Source of the DNA: Paenibacillus sp. FSL K6-1096
GTDB lineage: Bacteria > Bacillota > Bacilli > Paenibacillales > Paenibacillaceae
DNA length: 64,000 bases
Assembly (NCBI RefSeq): GCF_037977055.1
Contig: NZ_CP150274.1
Span: 2,728,001 to 2,792,000 of the forward strand
Direction of reading: 5' to 3'
Part shown: piece after piece, positions 2,734-30,594 of the stretch
How the letters are laid out: the number at the start of each line of letters is the position of its first letter
How positions within the stretch are numbered: position 1 is the first letter of the stretch
Position numbers and translations under genes: made by a program
Notes under the pieces: generated by a model
Database searches by the model: none
Told to the model about the DNA's origin: nothing
The model's input: only the letters and a program-made list of their open reading frames with translations

Positions 2734-2882
2734 AAGTCATCCCCCTGCTCGTTCTGCTTGATTTACAATGAGTCTAACGAGTAGGCGGGAGTTGTGCAAG
2801 TGTGGAGACTTGAATGGTTCGGGGTGAAGGAGTGCTGGTGCCTGCTCTCACAGGCCGCTTGTATGGGTATGGGGCAGCATAG

Positions 2883-3051
2883 TTGCACATTATGCAGGAT
2901 TTCGCTATGAAGGTTACTGGCTGGGGAGCAATGTTGCATAATTTGCAAAAATTCCGGCGCAGAGAGCAAGTTAGCGCTGACTTTGTTGCATTTGGTGCAG
3001 GATTTCGGCGTAGACTGCTTCGTATTGGGCAGTATTGCTGCATTTTGTGCA
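2883..3051 (+). repeat. Array 1: four TTGCA-N5-TGCA dyads at 51-52 bp spacing
   Basis: Four 14-bp hyphenated palindromes lie at 2883-2896, 2934-2947, 2986-2999 and 3038-3051, with centre-to-centre steps of 51, 52 and 52 bases. Three of the four run into GGATTT on the right. The linkers match those of the array at 30330-30498 unit by unit, for example AGCAAGTTAGCGCT before dyad three in both, so both derive from one ancestral element. The region has no credible gene. Arm length (4-5 bp) is too short for stable RNA hairpins. The step of about 52 bp equals five DNA turns. Confidence 0.85.
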
Positions 3052-3126
3052 GGATTTCTCTATGAAGGTTACTGGATGGGGAGCATGGGAGAGCATGTGG
3101 CTCCTCCCTCGACGCAGCAGTATCCC

Positions 3127-3193
3127 TTGTATTCGGTTTTTCGCATATATTGGGCCCATATTCTCCTCCGTTGCCGATTGTATTCGGTTTTTG
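3127..3193 (+). repeat. Tail module of array 1, with a partial second copy
   Basis: TTGTATTCGGTTTTT at 3127-3141 is followed by CGCATATATTGGGCCCA to 3157. A second, shorter copy ATTGTATTCGGTTTTT begins at 3177. The same module follows dyad arrays near 30563 and 47129, always in the same orientation relative to the array. It is a dispersed sequence of unknown role. Confidence 0.75.
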
Positions 3194-3314
3194 AATTACA
3201 TTCCGCCCCCACGCCGACGCCCCACCCGATTGAATTTACTTATCCCCAAAACTATACACATCTTATCCACAACAGAAGAAAATCATAATTTTCTACACAA
3301 CAACAGCAACGACA

Positions 3315-4909: not shown

Positions 4910-5087
4910 TTGTATTTACTACAGCAGATCTTCTCTTTAGCGGTTCTAAAAAGCAATCTGTTGCAGTTTGTACAGCAGATTTTTGTGGAAGGGGTGTTTT
5001 GGGGGAGTATGCTGGAAATCTATTGTATGGAATACATTAGAACAGATTTTAACGCCGGATATAGCCTAATCTATTGTACAAAATACA
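4910..5087 (+). repeat. Array 4: four TTGTA-N5-TACA dyads at 51, 62 and 51 bp spacing
   Basis: Dyads lie at 4910-4923, 4961-4974 (TTGCA left arm), 5023-5036 and 5074-5087. All keep a 5-base gap between arms, as in array 1, but with T/A in place of C/G at one symmetric position. Steps are 51, 62 and 51 bases, close to five, six and five helical turns. The first two units share the right flank TACAGCAGAT. It looks like a second subfamily of the same element; no tail module follows. Confidence 0.75.
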
Positions 5088-5097
5088 CTCGCCGGCC

Positions 5098-5335
5098 CAT
5101 TTCCTTGCGAATCAACTCCTCACAATCTGCTCTTCTCACGAACTGCTCCTCTTACGAACCACTTTTTTCACAAACCCATTTCCTCATTTCCTCGCGAACC
5201 AGTCTCCTCGCAAATCATTTCCTCACAATCCGCTCCTCTTACGAATCATTTCCCCACGAACCATTACCTTGCAAATCAATTCCTCACAAACCTCTCCTCT
5301 TACGAACCGCTTTCCCCGCACCCCCTCTTCCCATT
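5098..5335. repeat. C/T-rich degenerate direct repeats
   Basis: The words CTCCTCTTACGAA (three close copies, near 5146, 5233 and 5294) and TTCCTCACAA recur through this stretch, in strongly pyrimidine-rich DNA. Units vary in spacing, so this is a decayed repeat and not a clean tandem array. No gene with a ribosome site is present. It lies between dyad array 4 and the metY terminator. Confidence 0.6.
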
Positions 5336-5362
5336 ACTCCCCCCCCCCGGCCTCCTGCTCCC

Positions 5363-5570: not shown

Positions 5571-6902
<1,332 letters not shown>

Positions 6903-13140: not shown

Positions 13141-15477
13141 ATGGCCCAGCCCGTACACCCGCTATCCCTGCTCAACCGTTTCCGGCTTACCTGGAATCAT
13201 TTCAAATCCAAGCTGCTGCTCAAATACGCATTCTCCTATATCCTTATGTTCCTCATCCCGCTGACCGGCGTTACCTTCTTCGTCTATGAAAACGCCGTCA
13301 AAGGCCTGAGGGTCGAAATTGAACAATCCAATGTCAACCAGCTCAATCAGGTGAAGAGCACCATTGACGGCCGGATGAACGAGCTCCAGGAAATCGCAGG
13401 CAGAATCGCCTATGACAAGCATCTGACCCCTTATATGGTCCGTCATCCGTACTACAGTCTGGAGGCTGTGCAGGCACTGGCGAATTACAAGGCCAGCAGC
13501 AGCATCGCCGAGGATCTGTTTCTCTATTTCCATGGCGATGCCAATATTTATTCTTACCGCGGCCTGGCCGATCTTCATGTTACGTTCAATACGCTCTACC
13601 AGTTCGAGCACTGGACTTCGGATGAGCTGCGCCGTGACTTGAATGAGACCCGCCAGCCGCTTGTGCGTCCCGCCGAGAATGTAACCGTCAATTCCCGTGT
13701 CGAGCCGATGCTCGCCATGCTGATCCCCGTGAAGCCCAATGACCCGTTCCCCTACGGAACGGTTGTCTACCTGATGAAGGAATCGAATCTTACCGGCGTG
13801 ATGGATACGATTCTGAACGATTTCGCGGGCAGCAGCTATATCTTCGGTCCCTCCGGCGAGGTGCTGACTGCGAACAGCCATGGCGTCAGTCTCCCCCAGG
13901 ACGAGCTGAAGCAGATCTCTGCCCTTCAGCCGGGTATTCACAACCTGGAGCTGGACGGGGAGCAATATTCCGTGGTGTCTGTGAAGTCTGAAGAGAACGG
14001 CTGGACCTACGTCACCACGATGCCCAGCTTCCAGTTCTTCAGCCGGGTGGCCCATGTCCAGACGCTGATTCTGATTGTCTTCTGCATCACAGTTGTCACA
14101 GGCATAGCGGCCGCACTGCTGCTGGCCAAGCGGCAATATCACCCGATCCGGGACCTGATGGAATTCGCCAAGCCGAGAGGCAGCGGCAGCGAGACGTACA
14201 GAGTCCGCAATGAATGGGACTCGATCCGCCAGACGCTGCATGATTACAGCGCCAGAATTGATCTTCAGGAGCCTTTTGTCCGCAACCAGTGTATGCTGCT
14301 GCTGCTCAAGCACGGCAAGCCGGATGATCCCGAGATTGAGCAGATGCTGCTCAGCACAGGCTTCCGCTATCCGCAGGGACAAGGCCTCTACTTCTCGGCG
14401 ATCCTGTCCTGGGATGATCCGGCGTCCGGCGGCCAGTCCTGGCAGGAACGCCATCTGCTGCAGGAGATGCTGACCAATACCCGCCTGCCCGGGCCGGATG
14501 CGCAGATCTTCGGGATTGAATTCTCGGTCAAGGACCAGTTCGCGCTGATTGTCTCCCTTCCCGGCGAAGGGGAGCTTCCGGTCCAGAGCCGGATGGAGCA
14601 GGTGATTACAGCCGTCCAGGCTGTGATCCGGGAACACTCGCAGCTTGAGCTGAGCATCGGTGTCGGCATGGCCTACCGCGACCTGGCCCGGCTGAACCAG
14701 TCCTTCATTGAAGCCTCGGCGGCACTGGAGCACCGGATGATCCGGCGCAGCGGCCAGGTCACCTACTTCGAGCAGCTGGCTGAGCTAAGCCCGTCCGCTG
14801 CCGGTAGCTTCTGGATTCCGCGCAAATCGATGCTCAAGCTGGAGCAGAGTCTGAAGCAGGGCAACGAATCGGTAGCGGCCCAGATGATTGCCGACACCAT
14901 CGATACGATGAAGGATGAGCCGCTCCAGGTGCATCTGCTGCGCTGTATCTGCTTCGATCTGCTGAACGCTTTTCTGCGCACCGCCTCGGAGCTGGGCATG
15001 GATGAGGTGTTCACCAATATGCCGGAGCTGACCTCCTTCGAGACGCTGGAGGAGCTGGAGAGCCGGCTGCTCTCACTGGCTGCCGCCATCTGCGCCCAGG
15101 TCGAACGGAATACAGAGACGAGCGAGTCTTCGCTGATGGATGACATTCTGGAATATGTCGACCAGCAGTTTGCCGATTACACGCTCAGCCTGGAGCATGT
15201 GGCGTTGAAGTTCGCCATCTCGACCTCTTATTTAAGCCGCAGCTTCAAGGAGAAGACCGGCAGCAATTTCTCCCAGTATATCTGGCAGCGGCGTGTGGAC
15301 GAGGTGATCCGTCTGCTGGAGAACACCAGTGCGCCGCTCAAGGAAATCATCGAGCAGGTCGGTTATCTGGATGCGCCCAACTTCATCCGCAAGTTCAAAA
15401 AAGAAACCGGTCTGACGCCGGGACAGTACCGCAAGGAACATGCCTTGAAGGGAGCTGCTGCGAAAAGACCGGTTTAA
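13141..15477 (+). CDS. AraC-family regulator with extracellular sensor (YesN/YtdP type)
   Basis: A 778-residue membrane one-component regulator. TM1 is at about residues 26-48, an extracellular Cache-like sensor at about 50-300, TM2 at about 305-330, and a long cytoplasmic linker leads to the C-terminal AraC helix-turn-helix pair (about 675-770; F-A-I-S-T-S-Y-L-S-R-S-F-K-E-K-T-G and V-G-Y-L-D-A-P-N-F-I-R-K-F-K). Such proteins usually sense a sugar or a sugar-binding protein and switch on a nearby polysaccharide locus. It sits beside the alpha-mannoside operon, running towards it, so that operon is its likely target. ATG follows GGAGG with nine bases. A weak hairpin follows the stop. Confidence 0.88.
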   Translation: MAQPVHPLSLLNRFRLTWNHFKSKLLLKYAFSYILMFLIPLTGVTFFVYENAVKGLRVEIEQSNVNQLNQVKSTIDGRMNELQEIAGRIAYDKHLTPYMVRHPYYSLEAVQALANYKASSSIAEDLFLYFHGDANIYSYRGLADLHVTFNTLYQFEHWTSDELRRDLNETRQPLVRPAENVTVNSRVEPMLAMLIPVKPNDPFPYGTVVYLMKESNLTGVMDTILNDFAGSSYIFGPSGEVLTANSHGVSLPQDELKQISALQPGIHNLELDGEQYSVVSVKSEENGWTYVTTMPSFQFFSRVAHVQTLILIVFCITVVTGIAAALLLAKRQYHPIRDLMEFAKPRGSGSETYRVRNEWDSIRQTLHDYSARIDLQEPFVRNQCMLLLLKHGKPDDPEIEQMLLSTGFRYPQGQGLYFSAILSWDDPASGGQSWQERHLLQEMLTNTRLPGPDAQIFGIEFSVKDQFALIVSLPGEGELPVQSRMEQVITAVQAVIREHSQLELSIGVGMAYRDLARLNQSFIEASAALEHRMIRRSGQVTYFEQLAELSPSAAGSFWIPRKSMLKLEQSLKQGNESVAAQMIADTIDTMKDEPLQVHLLRCICFDLLNAFLRTASELGMDEVFTNMPELTSFETLEELESRLLSLAAAICAQVERNTETSESSLMDDILEYVDQQFADYTLSLEHVALKFAISTSYLSRSFKEKTGSNFSQYIWQRRVDEVIRLLENTSAPLKEIIEQVGYLDAPNFIRKFKKETGLTPGQYRKEHALKGAAAKRPV

Positions 15478-15519: not shown

Positions 15520-15688
15520 TGCACATATTGCAACATTTCGCTCATCCTGTTGCCCCGAACGCGTAATTGTTGCACAAAAGGCAGGATTCCATCTCGTCCG
15601 GGCAGTGTGGCAGGATTATTCCTGCATTCTATGCAACATTCCTCCCGTAAAGCTGGCTATCTGTGAACCCAAGCTGCAAAATATGCAA
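15520..15688 (-). repeat. Array 3: four TGCA-type dyads at 50-53 bp spacing, mostly minus orientation
   Basis: Dyads lie at 15520-15533, 15570-15583, 15623-15636 and 15675-15688 with centre steps of 50, 53 and 52 bases. Units one, three and four read TTGCA-N5-TGCA on the minus strand; units one and three run into GGAWT flanks. Unit two is in plus orientation with one arm mutated (GGCA). The array fills the space between convergent genes (AraC regulator and GH130) and shows the same architecture as arrays 1 and 2 in the opposite orientation, without a tail module. Confidence 0.8.
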
Positions 15689-15828: not shown

Positions 15829-16845
15829 CTACTCTGCTTCCTTCAGAATATGCTCCACCAGTTCATCCAGAGGCACCGTAGCCAGCGCAATGGCTGTATC
15901 GGTTACGCCGTAGTAGATATAGAGCAGGCCGTCCTTGACCACATTGCCGGTCGGGAAGATGACATTCGGAATCTGGAAGCCGAATTTCTCGTAATAGGTC
16001 TCCGGCTCCATAATGAAATTACGGGTCCGGGCAATGATCTTCTCCGGCTGCTCCAGATCCAGCAGCATCGCTCCCACACGGTAGACAACCTCTTCATCTA
16101 CGCCGTGATAGAGCACCAGCCAGCCTTTGTCTGTCCGGATTGGAGGTGTTGAGCCGCCGATCTTCCGCGCTTCCCACGGCAGGTCCCCGGCAGAGGCGAG
16201 CAGCTTGGGCTCTTCCCAATGCACCAGATCCTCGGAGTAGGTAATCCACATAGCGGCTTTTTCCGTGCCGTAGGCCTCGCCCACGTATTCTTCGGGGCGG
16301 CGAAGCAGCACGAATTTGCCGTTGATTTTCTCAGGAAACAGGATGTTGTCCCGGTCGTTGATCTCCAGCGGCGTCGTGTCCGCCACGAACTCCCAGTCCA
16401 GCAGATTGGTTGACTTCAGAATCGAGGAGCGGGTCAGCCAGTGGCCCTCCTCTTCTCCCCAGCCGTCCGGGTAGGTCGGAATGGAGCGCTCAGGGACGCC
16501 GCGCCCGGTAGGATAATAGCTCATGGCACAAGGGCGCAGGGCGTAGTTCAGGTAGAACGTGCCGTCGATCTTCACAATGCGCGGGTCCTGCACACTGCCG
16601 TACGGGAAGCCCAGCATATCCGGTGTGACAATCGGCTCATCCTTCACATGGGTGAAGTTCACGCCGTCCTCGCTCTCCAGCAGGCCCAGATAGTTCTTGC
16701 ACGGGGTCAGGGAACCGGCGGTACGCTCAATCATATAGAACTTGCCGTTATCGATGATAACGGCCGGGTTAAATACGGTAACCTTACGCCATTCATAGCC
16801 GCCCGGGACGACAATCGGATTATTTGGATGTCTTGTAATTTGCAT
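15829..16845 (-). CDS. Glycoside hydrolase family 130 beta-mannoside phosphorylase
   Basis: A 338-residue five-bladed propeller enzyme of GH130. Family members use phosphate to split beta-1,4-mannosyl bonds (mannosyl-GlcNAc, mannobiose or longer), releasing mannose 1-phosphate. Typical blade motifs are visible: F-N-P-A-V-I-I-D near residue 27, V-Q-D-P-R-I near 95, and G-S-T-P-P-I-R-T and V-L-Y-H-G-V-D in the second half. It is last in the operon after GH38 and GH3 and starts two bases past the GH38 stop, with a GGAGGAA site. With alpha-mannosidases nearby, action on the mannosyl-GlcNAc core of N-glycans is attractive, but the sub-family is not settled by sight. No signal peptide, so cytoplasmic. 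Confidence 0.87.
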   Translation of the reverse strand: MQITRHPNNPIVVPGGYEWRKVTVFNPAVIIDNGKFYMIERTAGSLTPCKNYLGLLESEDGVNFTHVKDEPIVTPDMLGFPYGSVQDPRIVKIDGTFYLNYALRPCAMSYYPTGRGVPERSIPTYPDGWGEEEGHWLTRSSILKSTNLLDWEFVADTTPLEINDRDNILFPEKINGKFVLLRRPEEYVGEAYGTEKAAMWITYSEDLVHWEEPKLLASAGDLPWEARKIGGSTPPIRTDKGWLVLYHGVDEEVVYRVGAMLLDLEQPEKIIARTRNFIMEPETYYEKFGFQIPNVIFPTGNVVKDGLLYIYYGVTDTAIALATVPLDELVEHILKEAE

Positions 16846-28989: not shown

Positions 28990-30270
28990 ATGAACCTGCC
29001 AGCTTCCATTACCGCTTATCTGAACGAGGCCGACGAACGGCTTGCGCACCACCCGAAACTCCAGCAGTTGTTCCACAACTGCTTCCCGAACACACTGGAG
29101 ACCACAACCAAGCTGCTGGAGGACGGCACGACCTTCGTATTCACCGGCGATATCCCGGCCATGTGGCTGCGGGACTCGACGGAGCAGGTGCGGCACTATA
29201 TTCCTTTTGCCAAGCATGACCCTGAATTACAGCGGATTCTCCGCGGCCTGATTGCCCGCCAGATGTTCTATGTGAATATTGATCCTTACACCAATGCCTT
29301 CAATGAAACGGCAAGCGGCCAGCATTACCGGGATACGGATGACTGCAACCTGAACCCGTGGATGTGGGAGCGCAAATATGAGCTGGATTCCCTGTGCTTC
29401 GTTGTGCAGCTGGCTTATATGTACTGGAAGGAAGCGGAGCAGACCGACATCTTCGATGCCGCCTGCTACCAGGCGCTGACCTCCATTGTAAATACTATAG
29501 AGACCGAGCAGCGCCATGGAGAGAAGTCTCCCTACCACTTCATCCGCCAGACGCTGAAGGATACAGAGACGTTGCAGAATGACGGCCGGGGAATGCCGGT
29601 TAACTATACCGGGATGAGCTGGTCGGGCTTCCGCCCGAGCGATGACAGCTGCGAATTCGGCTACAATATTCCTTCCAACATGTTCGCTGTAGTGATTCTG
29701 GGTTATATCCGCGAGATGGCCAGTGAGGTCTATCAGGATGAGCTGCTGGCGTCCCGGGCCGCGAAGCTGCGCAAGGAGATCGACTTCGGCATCCGCACCT
29801 ACGGCATCGTGAACCATCCGAAGTACGGCAGAATTTACGCCTATGAGACGGACGGCTACGGCAATTACTCCTTGATGGACGATGCCGGAACCCCGGGACT
29901 GTTGTCCATTCCTTATATTGGTTATGTGGGCGTGGAGGATGAGATCTATCAGAATACCCGCCGGTTCGCGCTCAGCTTCGACAACCCCTTCTACTTCGAG
30001 GGCAAGTTCGCCAAGGGCATCGGCAGTCCGCATACACCGGGCGGTTATGTGTGGCATATGGCGCTGTCCATGCAGGCGCTGACGGCGGATAATGATGCGG
30101 AGATGAAGGAGCTGATCGATATGCTGATCCGCACCGATGCCGATACCGGCTACATGCATGAGGGCTTCCACCCCGATAACCCGGCCGACTTCTCGCGCGA
30201 ATGGTTCGCCTGGTCCAACAGTCTGTTCGCCACGCTGATCGGCAAGGCGATGGATAAGGGGCTGGTTTAG
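28990..30270 (+). CDS. Exo-alpha-1,6-mannosidase, glycoside hydrolase family 125
   Basis: A 426-residue metal-independent alpha-mannosidase of GH125, an inverting (alpha/alpha)6 barrel enzyme that removes terminal alpha-1,6-mannose. Recognisable family segments are P-A-M-W-L-R-D-S-T-E-Q near residue 55, D-P-Y-T-N-A-F-N-E near 98, W-S-G-F-R-P-S-D-D near 212, and G-G-Y-V-W-H-M-A-L near 350. The partner GH38 removes other alpha links, so the two should strip mannose from N-glycan or mannan fragments together. GGAGG is present nine to ten bases before ATG. No signal peptide, so it is cytoplasmic. A dyad array and terminator follow the gene. Confidence 0.93.
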   Translation: MNLPASITAYLNEADERLAHHPKLQQLFHNCFPNTLETTTKLLEDGTTFVFTGDIPAMWLRDSTEQVRHYIPFAKHDPELQRILRGLIARQMFYVNIDPYTNAFNETASGQHYRDTDDCNLNPWMWERKYELDSLCFVVQLAYMYWKEAEQTDIFDAACYQALTSIVNTIETEQRHGEKSPYHFIRQTLKDTETLQNDGRGMPVNYTGMSWSGFRPSDDSCEFGYNIPSNMFAVVILGYIREMASEVYQDELLASRAAKLRKEIDFGIRTYGIVNHPKYGRIYAYETDGYGNYSLMDDAGTPGLLSIPYIGYVGVEDEIYQNTRRFALSFDNPFYFEGKFAKGIGSPHTPGGYVWHMALSMQALTADNDAEMKELIDMLIRTDADTGYMHEGFHPDNPADFSREWFAWSNSLFATLIGKAMDKGLV

Positions 30271-30329: not shown

Positions 30330-30498
30330 TTGCATATTTTGCAGGATTCTTCTAAAACTGTTACTGATTTGTGGTAGAATGTTGCATTATTTGCACAAAT
30401 TCCATTGCAGGGAGCAAGTTAGCGCTTACTTTGTTGCATTTCGTGCAGGATTTCGGCACAAACCGCTTTTATTGAGCAGTATTGTTGCACCTTTTGCA
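30330..30498 (+). repeat. Array 2: four TTGCA-N5-TGCA dyads at 51-52 bp spacing
   Basis: Dyads lie at 30330-30343, 30382-30395, 30434-30447 and 30485-30498, with centre steps of 52, 52 and 51. Each corresponds in order and flanks to a dyad of array 1 (2883-3051): dyads one, three and four run into GGATT, while dyad two runs into MAAATTCC in both arrays. Linker three to four ends in GAGCAGTATTG here and GGGCAGTATTG there. It begins 60 bases after the GH125 stop. Confidence 0.85.
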
Positions 30499-30562: not shown

Positions 30563-30594
30563 TTGTATTCTTTTTTTCGCATATATTTGGCCCA
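30563..30594 (+). repeat. Tail module of array 2
   Basis: TTGTATTCTTTTTTT followed by CGCATATATTTGGCCCA matches the tail of array 1 with two changes in the first half. It lies 64 bases after the last dyad and just before an intrinsic terminator. Confidence 0.75.

Follow-up and report, generated by a model that had tools for sequence, protein, structure and literature searches.

Helically phased four-dyad arrays are dispersed through many Paenibacillaceae genomes, with dyads and phasing under selection

The genomes of many Paenibacillaceae carry dispersed intergenic arrays of a short palindromic dyad, TGYA-N5-TRCA, almost always four dyads to an array and set five or six helical turns apart. 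Selection acts in place on the dyads as well as on their phasing, while the letters between them are free. We think it probable (about 0.62) that the arrays are binding platforms for a sequence-specific protein, probably a chromosome-structural one, which were spread by copying and then kept by selection.

The starting point was a single stretch of DNA, hereafter the window, which covers 64 kb (positions 2728001-2792000) of the 7,194,942-bp (7.19 Mb) chromosome of Paenibacillus sp. FSL K6-1096. An earlier sequence-only reading of the window had described two loci with phased dyads, conserved linkers and a fixed tail. Direct reading of the dyad positions confirmed both loci, here called arrays A and B. 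A search with the symmetric core TGYA-N5-TRCA revealed two more arrays that the reading had passed over, so that the window holds four, each with four dyads at steps of 51-53 bp or of 51-62-51 bp (Table 1). The tail is indeed present at both of the original loci, but it is not fixed: at array B it is a variant, and elsewhere it is optional and carried by only part of the copies. Arrays A and B belong to one subfamily, class I; the linkers of the class III and class II arrays are unrelated to those of class I. The window contains 11 copies of the string TTGCAN5TGCA where 0.78 would be expected, and none of 100 shuffles reached 11. In the class II array the dyad at 15571 has GGCA in place of TRCA (one mismatch).

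Table 1. Arrays and their parts in the window (positions are those of the window; position 1 is its first letter)
Feature	Coordinates	Strand	Basis or detail
Class I array A, dyad 1 (TGCACATTATGCA)	2884..2896	+	direct reading and core search
Class I array A, dyad 2	2935..2947	+	direct reading and core search
Class I array A, dyad 3	2987..2999	+	direct reading and core search
Class I array A, dyad 4	3039..3051	+	array A steps 51, 52, 52
Class I element A, approximate extent, optional tail excluded	2846..3085	+	homology across 30 aligned copies
Optional tail of array A: two TTGTATTCGGTTTTT..GGCCC copies 51 bp apart	3127..3208	+	first copy (TTGTATTCGGTTTTT...GGCCC) 3127-3157, second 3178-3208
Class III array, dyads 4911, 4962, 5024, 5075 (51-62-51)	4911..5087	.	
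Class II array, dyads 15520, 15571, 15623, 15675 (51-52-52)	15520..15687	.	
Class I array B, dyads 30331, 30383, 30435, 30486 (52, 52, 51)	30331..30498	+	
Optional tail of array B (TTGTATTCTTTTTTTCGCATATATTTGGCCCA), variant of array A tail	30563..30594	+	

As to their surroundings, the class III array sits past the 3' end of a gene for a Cys/Met PLP enzyme (5571-6899, minus strand), the class II array lies in the convergent gap between an AraC-type gene (13141-15477, plus strand) and a GH130 gene (15829-16845, minus strand), and a GH125 gene (28990-30270, plus strand) lies upstream of array B. Degenerate short repeats resembling CTCCTCACGAACC were seen at 5090-5340, immediately beside the class III array. 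The motif ACAGAAGAAAATCATAATTT, at 3270-3300, recurs beside several class I copies (flanks of loci L024 and L026).

The arrays are abundant genome-wide. When two mismatches at most were allowed, TTGCAN5TGCARRATTYC gave 249 matches compared to 6 for the reversed control. Pairs of the form TGYAN5TRCA-N{24,54}-TGYAN5TRCA, which admit spacings of 37-67 bp and take in all classes, were found 332 times, compared to 0 for the reversed pattern. A genome-wide excess of phased pairs, as proposed from the window alone, is thus present, and such spacings are far commoner than chance. The proposed range of 50-53 or 60-63 bp also agrees with the genome: the first 100 listed pairs are spaced by 51 (56 pairs), 52 (21), 53 (1), 62 (21) or 63 bp (1) only. 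These pairs group into 39 arrays, 25 of which contain exactly four perfect sites and 21 of which include a 62-bp step. Two congeners, genomes G008 and G059, yielded 521 pairs (1 in the control) and 219 pairs (0 in the control), respectively. From the pair counts we estimate ~100-170 arrays in each of these three genomes.

The spacing rule is strict. Among 200 spacings listed from two species, within the range of 37-67 bp that the search admits, 199 were 51-53 or 61-63 bp, that is, five or six helical turns. Five-turn steps average 51.4 bp and six-turn steps 61.9 bp, equal to 10.29-10.31 bp per turn; the two means differ by 10.45 bp, or one turn. A position matrix applied to 800 kb of contiguous, unselected G008 sequence found 24 arrays, and 0 in the reversed sequence; 19 of the 24 had exactly four detected sites. 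Distances of up to 180 bp between perfect dyads in these 800 kb fell at 51-53, 62-63, 103-105, 113-114, 154-156 and 164-165 bp, with the single exception of one pair at 9 bp.

The arrays form several subfamilies, between which linkers are unrelated while dyads and phasing are the same. Class I has 41 strong copies across the chromosome, plus weaker ones, and the copies are ~80% alike. A single recent duplication, which had been considered as the origin of the two loci in the window, is excluded by this number. Within one genome, class I copies differ at 1.7% of core positions and at 15.8% of linker positions. The linkers within one array are not copies of each other (classes I-III). Since subfamilies with homologous linkers exist in tens of copies, copying is real, and the spread of the arrays by copying is clear from the subfamilies; the earlier suggestion of an element copied with its phasing kept is supported to this extent. 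Subfamilies of other species and families, whose linkers are unrelated, keep the five- or six-turn spacing, and the phasing is therefore not merely inherited with the copies.

Alignment of 30 class I copies revealed the tail in only part of them, and further tail copies occur elsewhere in the genome. A 51-bp minisatellite (TTGTATTCGGTTTTTCGCATACATTTGGCCC...) of up to about nine copies begins with the class I tail; it was seen at window positions 3127-3208 and at G000:C1:4335069-4335545 and 623525-623712. Its period equals that of the dyads, and its sequence is different. At loci L070, L141, L143, L145 and L148 of genomes G098 and G097 the dyad unit itself has turned into a genuine tandem repeat of 51/52 bp, and each locus has many near-identical units.

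Change at orthologous loci was measured in one species pair, on 13 G008 arrays alignable with their G059 orthologs. Core TGYA/TRCA letters had changed at 1.3% of positions (4/308) compared to 15.9% for linkers (192/1204; p=1e-15). Because the arrays had been detected in G008 alone, at most half of this difference could be due to ascertainment; even when compared with half of the linker rate, the core remains significantly conserved (p=2e-7). In the same arrays the Y/R letters changed at 4.9%, all five changes being motif-keeping transitions, and the rates were 11.0% in N5, 6.3% in the five flanking bases and 13.2% in outside sequence. Linker length was kept within 1 bp in 37 of 39 linkers, compared to 37 of 61 flanking 52-bp windows; shifts of more than 1 bp thus affected 2/39 and 24/61, respectively (p=1e-4). 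The core is conserved and linker lengths are kept while linker letters diverge. We conclude that selection acts on dyads and phasing in place. Some arrays were lost or replaced between G008 and G059, which indicates that single arrays are dispensable.

A sample of 298 genomes from the order showed phased pairs (one or more) in 36 of 49 genera. Many genomes gave hundreds of pairs, compared to 0-5 in the control. Counts are patchy, from 0 to more than 300 pairs per genome, with more than 100 in many Paenibacillus and zero in many near relatives. Genome G151, which looks like the youngest expansion, has 267 pairs, its copies having been read among the matches listed, and its congeners have essentially none. 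The 5-6-5 layout appears again in distant families, there with other central letters, for example TGTAAAACCTACA in G169 and G295. A three-dyad pattern run over 84,980 species genomes matched overwhelmingly in Paenibacillus and other Paenibacillaceae. On plasmids and phages no class I match was found, and matches of the three-dyad pattern in viral contigs were mostly low-complexity or coding repeats.

Several related layouts were noticed in these searches. Contig IMGVR_UViG_2879483077_000001 (L281), classed as viral, carries at 58-440, near the contig end, eight phased dyads resembling TGTACTTTGTGCA, with five spacings of 51, then 62, then 51; this run may mark the boundary of a prophage within the genome of a member of the Paenibacillaceae. 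In Candidatus Fermentithermobacillaceae (L311, L354, L294), GGTGCA-N5-TGCACC dyads recur at 53-bp steps and the linkers between them differ for the most part; L311 has at least ten such dyads in a row. These arrays may represent an independent relative of the same layout. In Rossellomorea, three contigs (L296, L358, L372) contain dyads resembling TGTACCTGGTACA in short arrays whose period is 25 bp.

The arrays avoid promoters. With genes called by a simple in-house caller, 11 of the 24 G008 arrays lie in convergent gaps, 13 in tandem gaps and none in divergent gaps, compared to 29, 103 and 38 background gaps (0/24 divergent for arrays, 38/170 for the background). The gene on the tail side of class I ends toward the element in 39 of 44 cases. 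Two G008 arrays lie inside the purine operon, in the order purC-array-purS...purF-array-purM, where the gene names are those we presume from the protein sequences.

Class I arrays are also oriented with respect to replication. The dnaA gene is at 3,688,481; GC skew changes sign at this gene and again at 0.32-0.40 Mb, where the terminus is placed. With this terminus the mixed strands near position 0 are no counter-examples to the orientation. The TTGCA...GGATTTC strand of class I points toward the origin (lagging orientation) in 40 of 45 copies in the own genome. Taken alone this polarity is modest (p=0.02), given a gene strand bias of 645:212 (~75% leading). That it is a mere by-product of this bias is countered by two observations. 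Gene direction says nothing in convergent or divergent gaps, and there 18 of 20 class I copies follow the polarity (p=4e-4); in six relatives, with the terminus assumed antipodal, it is obeyed in 99 of 110; ten of the eleven exceptions fall in the last 13% before the assumed terminus. Class II orientation in G008 is about even by eye, so the polarity belongs to class I and not to arrays in general. The layout of class III is symmetric and its polarity is not definable.

These properties could in part be those of a non-autonomous mobile element (MITE- or REP-like), with the dyads as binding sites of the mobilising enzyme. Homologous subfamilies in tens of copies, intergenic placement away from promoters and a patchy spread, abundant in one species and absent from its congeners, would all be expected of such an element. 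The strong replication polarity of class I would be as well: IS200/IS605-type elements insert into lagging-strand single-stranded DNA, and the polarity would stem from insertion of this kind. We nevertheless consider a mobile element unlikely. Dyads and spacing are kept at orthologous loci, unlike those of a dead insertion, and neutral decay after insertion is contradicted by the low core rate next to the linker rate and by the conserved lengths. The same dyads sit on unrelated linkers across subfamilies. Constant ends or terminal inverted repeats were not found, the ends being variable in 30 aligned class I copies, and no target-site duplications of arrays were found. No clean empty site was seen either; the one clear absence (G008 718827) has a shorter allele with half of dyad 1, and the presence/absence reads as a deletion. 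Between three pairs of neighbouring G008 arrays there is no transposase or autonomous element, only ordinary genes.

One array has itself been the target of an insertion. At G059 345396-347058 (L237) a 1.66-kb IS1182-like insertion sequence, with DUF772 and DDE transposase domains, lies exactly at the centre of array dyad 2, and its 5-bp duplication, GGAAA, is the N5 of the dyad. Members of the IS1182 family have been reported to target palindromes (PMC4923244).

The near-complete polarity of class I in seven genomes, including the neutral gaps, might suggest polar guides for a DNA translocase or the replication machinery (KOPS/FtsK- or SRS/SpoIIIE-like), or fork-related sites. However, classes II and III are as numerous and have no demonstrated polarity, class III being symmetric, and known guides are single 8-mers and not phased four-site arrays. 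We therefore find this explanation quite improbable.

At the Y/R positions of 80 dyads the combinations were T-G 27, T-A 26, C-A 23 and C-G 4. No base-pair covariation was detected in this set: the mismatching combinations C-A/T-G outnumber the others, and C-G falls below its expected count. The lack of pairing covariation makes a duplex-binding protein a better fit than RNA or a single-stranded DNA hairpin, and the site pattern fits a dimeric protein that would read duplex DNA. For classes I/II its half-site would be approximately TRCA-NN-A-WTT; for class III it would be TRCA-RYTA-WA or TRCA-NYAGAA. Action as RNA, by tandem hairpins in 3' UTRs that affect termination or stability, would suit the position of arrays next to gene 3' ends and inside the G008 pur operon, and perfect dyads could form short hairpins. 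Yet, besides the missing covariation, RNA fold z-scores of the two strands (-1.56 and -0.46) are unremarkable, no Rfam 15 match was found in the window above the gathering score, the orientation of dyads flips freely between arrays, and spacing by helical turns is meaningless for RNA, all of which makes this highly improbable. A coding function was rejected, as steps of 51, 52 and 62 bp and single-base linker indels break any frame. Functionless minisatellite dynamics with a ~51-bp unit, which the long tandem 51-bp arrays of G097 and G098 and the minisatellite nature of the tail might bring to mind, deserve hardly any credence, being contradicted by unrelated linkers that are not mutual copies within an array (classes I-III), by the alternation of 62 with 51 bp, by a site number that is almost always four and by selection in place.

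We thus favour binding of a protein. Each array would serve as a platform on which a single sequence-specific DNA-binding protein assembles as four dimers or as an oligomer equivalent to them. Its core site TGYA-N5-TRCA would span ~25 bp when the outer flanks are counted. The four sites would be kept on one face of the helix by their spacings of 5-5-5 or 5-6-5 turns, and a defined higher-order complex (wrapped, looped or bridging) may form only with all four sites. The observations ask for a factor that would read each dyad as a unit, require four of them, be sensitive to rotational phase and disregard linker letters, as would a protein assembling four dimers on one face. A protein lined up on one face was also one of the two options offered by the sequence-only reading, and phasing kept both across unrelated linkers and in place supports it; the binding itself, the oligomeric state and the structural role are what we infer. 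About 100 such platforms per genome would stand in non-promoter intergenic DNA, mostly near gene 3' ends, in many Paenibacillaceae. The non-promoter placement suggests a structural rather than a classical regulatory role, and the likeliest would be in chromosome structure, through anchoring or bridging by a lineage-specific nucleoid protein. Copying within the genome would make the subfamilies, and selection on dyads and phasing would then keep the arrays. The orientation of class I may reflect replication-coupled copying or a fork-related function. The helical repeat of ~10.3 bp, which is slightly short, would suit DNA curved around protein.

Several points count against binding platforms. 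Away from promoters a classical regulator would have no obvious target, and the patchy spread exemplified by G151 resembles that of an invading element more than it suits an essential function of the chromosome. Single arrays are dispensable, and selection in place was measured on 13 arrays of a single species pair. It is possible, and we propose it only tentatively, that the arrays belong to an undescribed chromosome-structuring system, in which a lineage-specific protein would build a fixed four-dimer phased complex on at least 100 platforms spread by copying, one subfamily of them oriented with replication.

Should the arrays prove to be protein platforms, a strict rule is already spelled out in their sequence (four sites at five- or six-turn steps, with the linkers irrelevant), of a kind rarely so clear in bacterial DNA, and nucleoid architecture becomes testable in a large genus. 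If they are mobile, they would be elements whose copies stay selected once inserted and are oriented along the replication fork. This, too, bears on how non-coding repeats acquire host function. Either way they are a major and apparently undescribed component of Paenibacillaceae genomes.

No description of phased four-site arrays was found in the open-licence literature, in line with the earlier reading, which could name no repeat family of this layout; one published in a subscription journal may have escaped notice. We regard the arrays as a new kind, their defining layout being in no described family that we found. The broad classes of dispersed intergenic repeats and of distributed chromosome-organising sites are already old. 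The REP/BIME elements of E. coli are stem-loops. Like them, the arrays are dispersed, intergenic and of high copy number, avoid divergent gaps and lie near gene 3' ends or in operons, and insertion sequences can hit the centres of the palindromes (here in one case, L237). Unlike them, the arrays have no stable hairpin or pairing covariation and consist of four short dyads at fixed helical phase with free linkers. With MITEs, the bcr repeats of Bacillus cereus and the BOX/RUP elements of pneumococcus they share short multi-copy non-coding sequence, subfamilies and patchy spread among species. However, the arrays showed neither terminal inverted repeats nor target duplications, their dyads are conserved in place, and one site layout is carried by unrelated linkers. 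KOPS and SRS are 8-bp unphased motifs; their orientation follows replication, as does that of class I only, whereas the arrays are phased and four-site and the other classes have no shown polarity. Noc-binding sites (NBS), matS sites of MatP, SlmA sites and parS are single sites. Like these, the arrays offer tens to hundreds of palindromic sites outside promoters, in their case putatively bound by protein; in contrast to these, the unit of an array is almost always four phased sites, and arrays are patchily present and not confined to one chromosome domain. With distributed organising sites they have in common many conserved copies that are selected and lie outside promoters.
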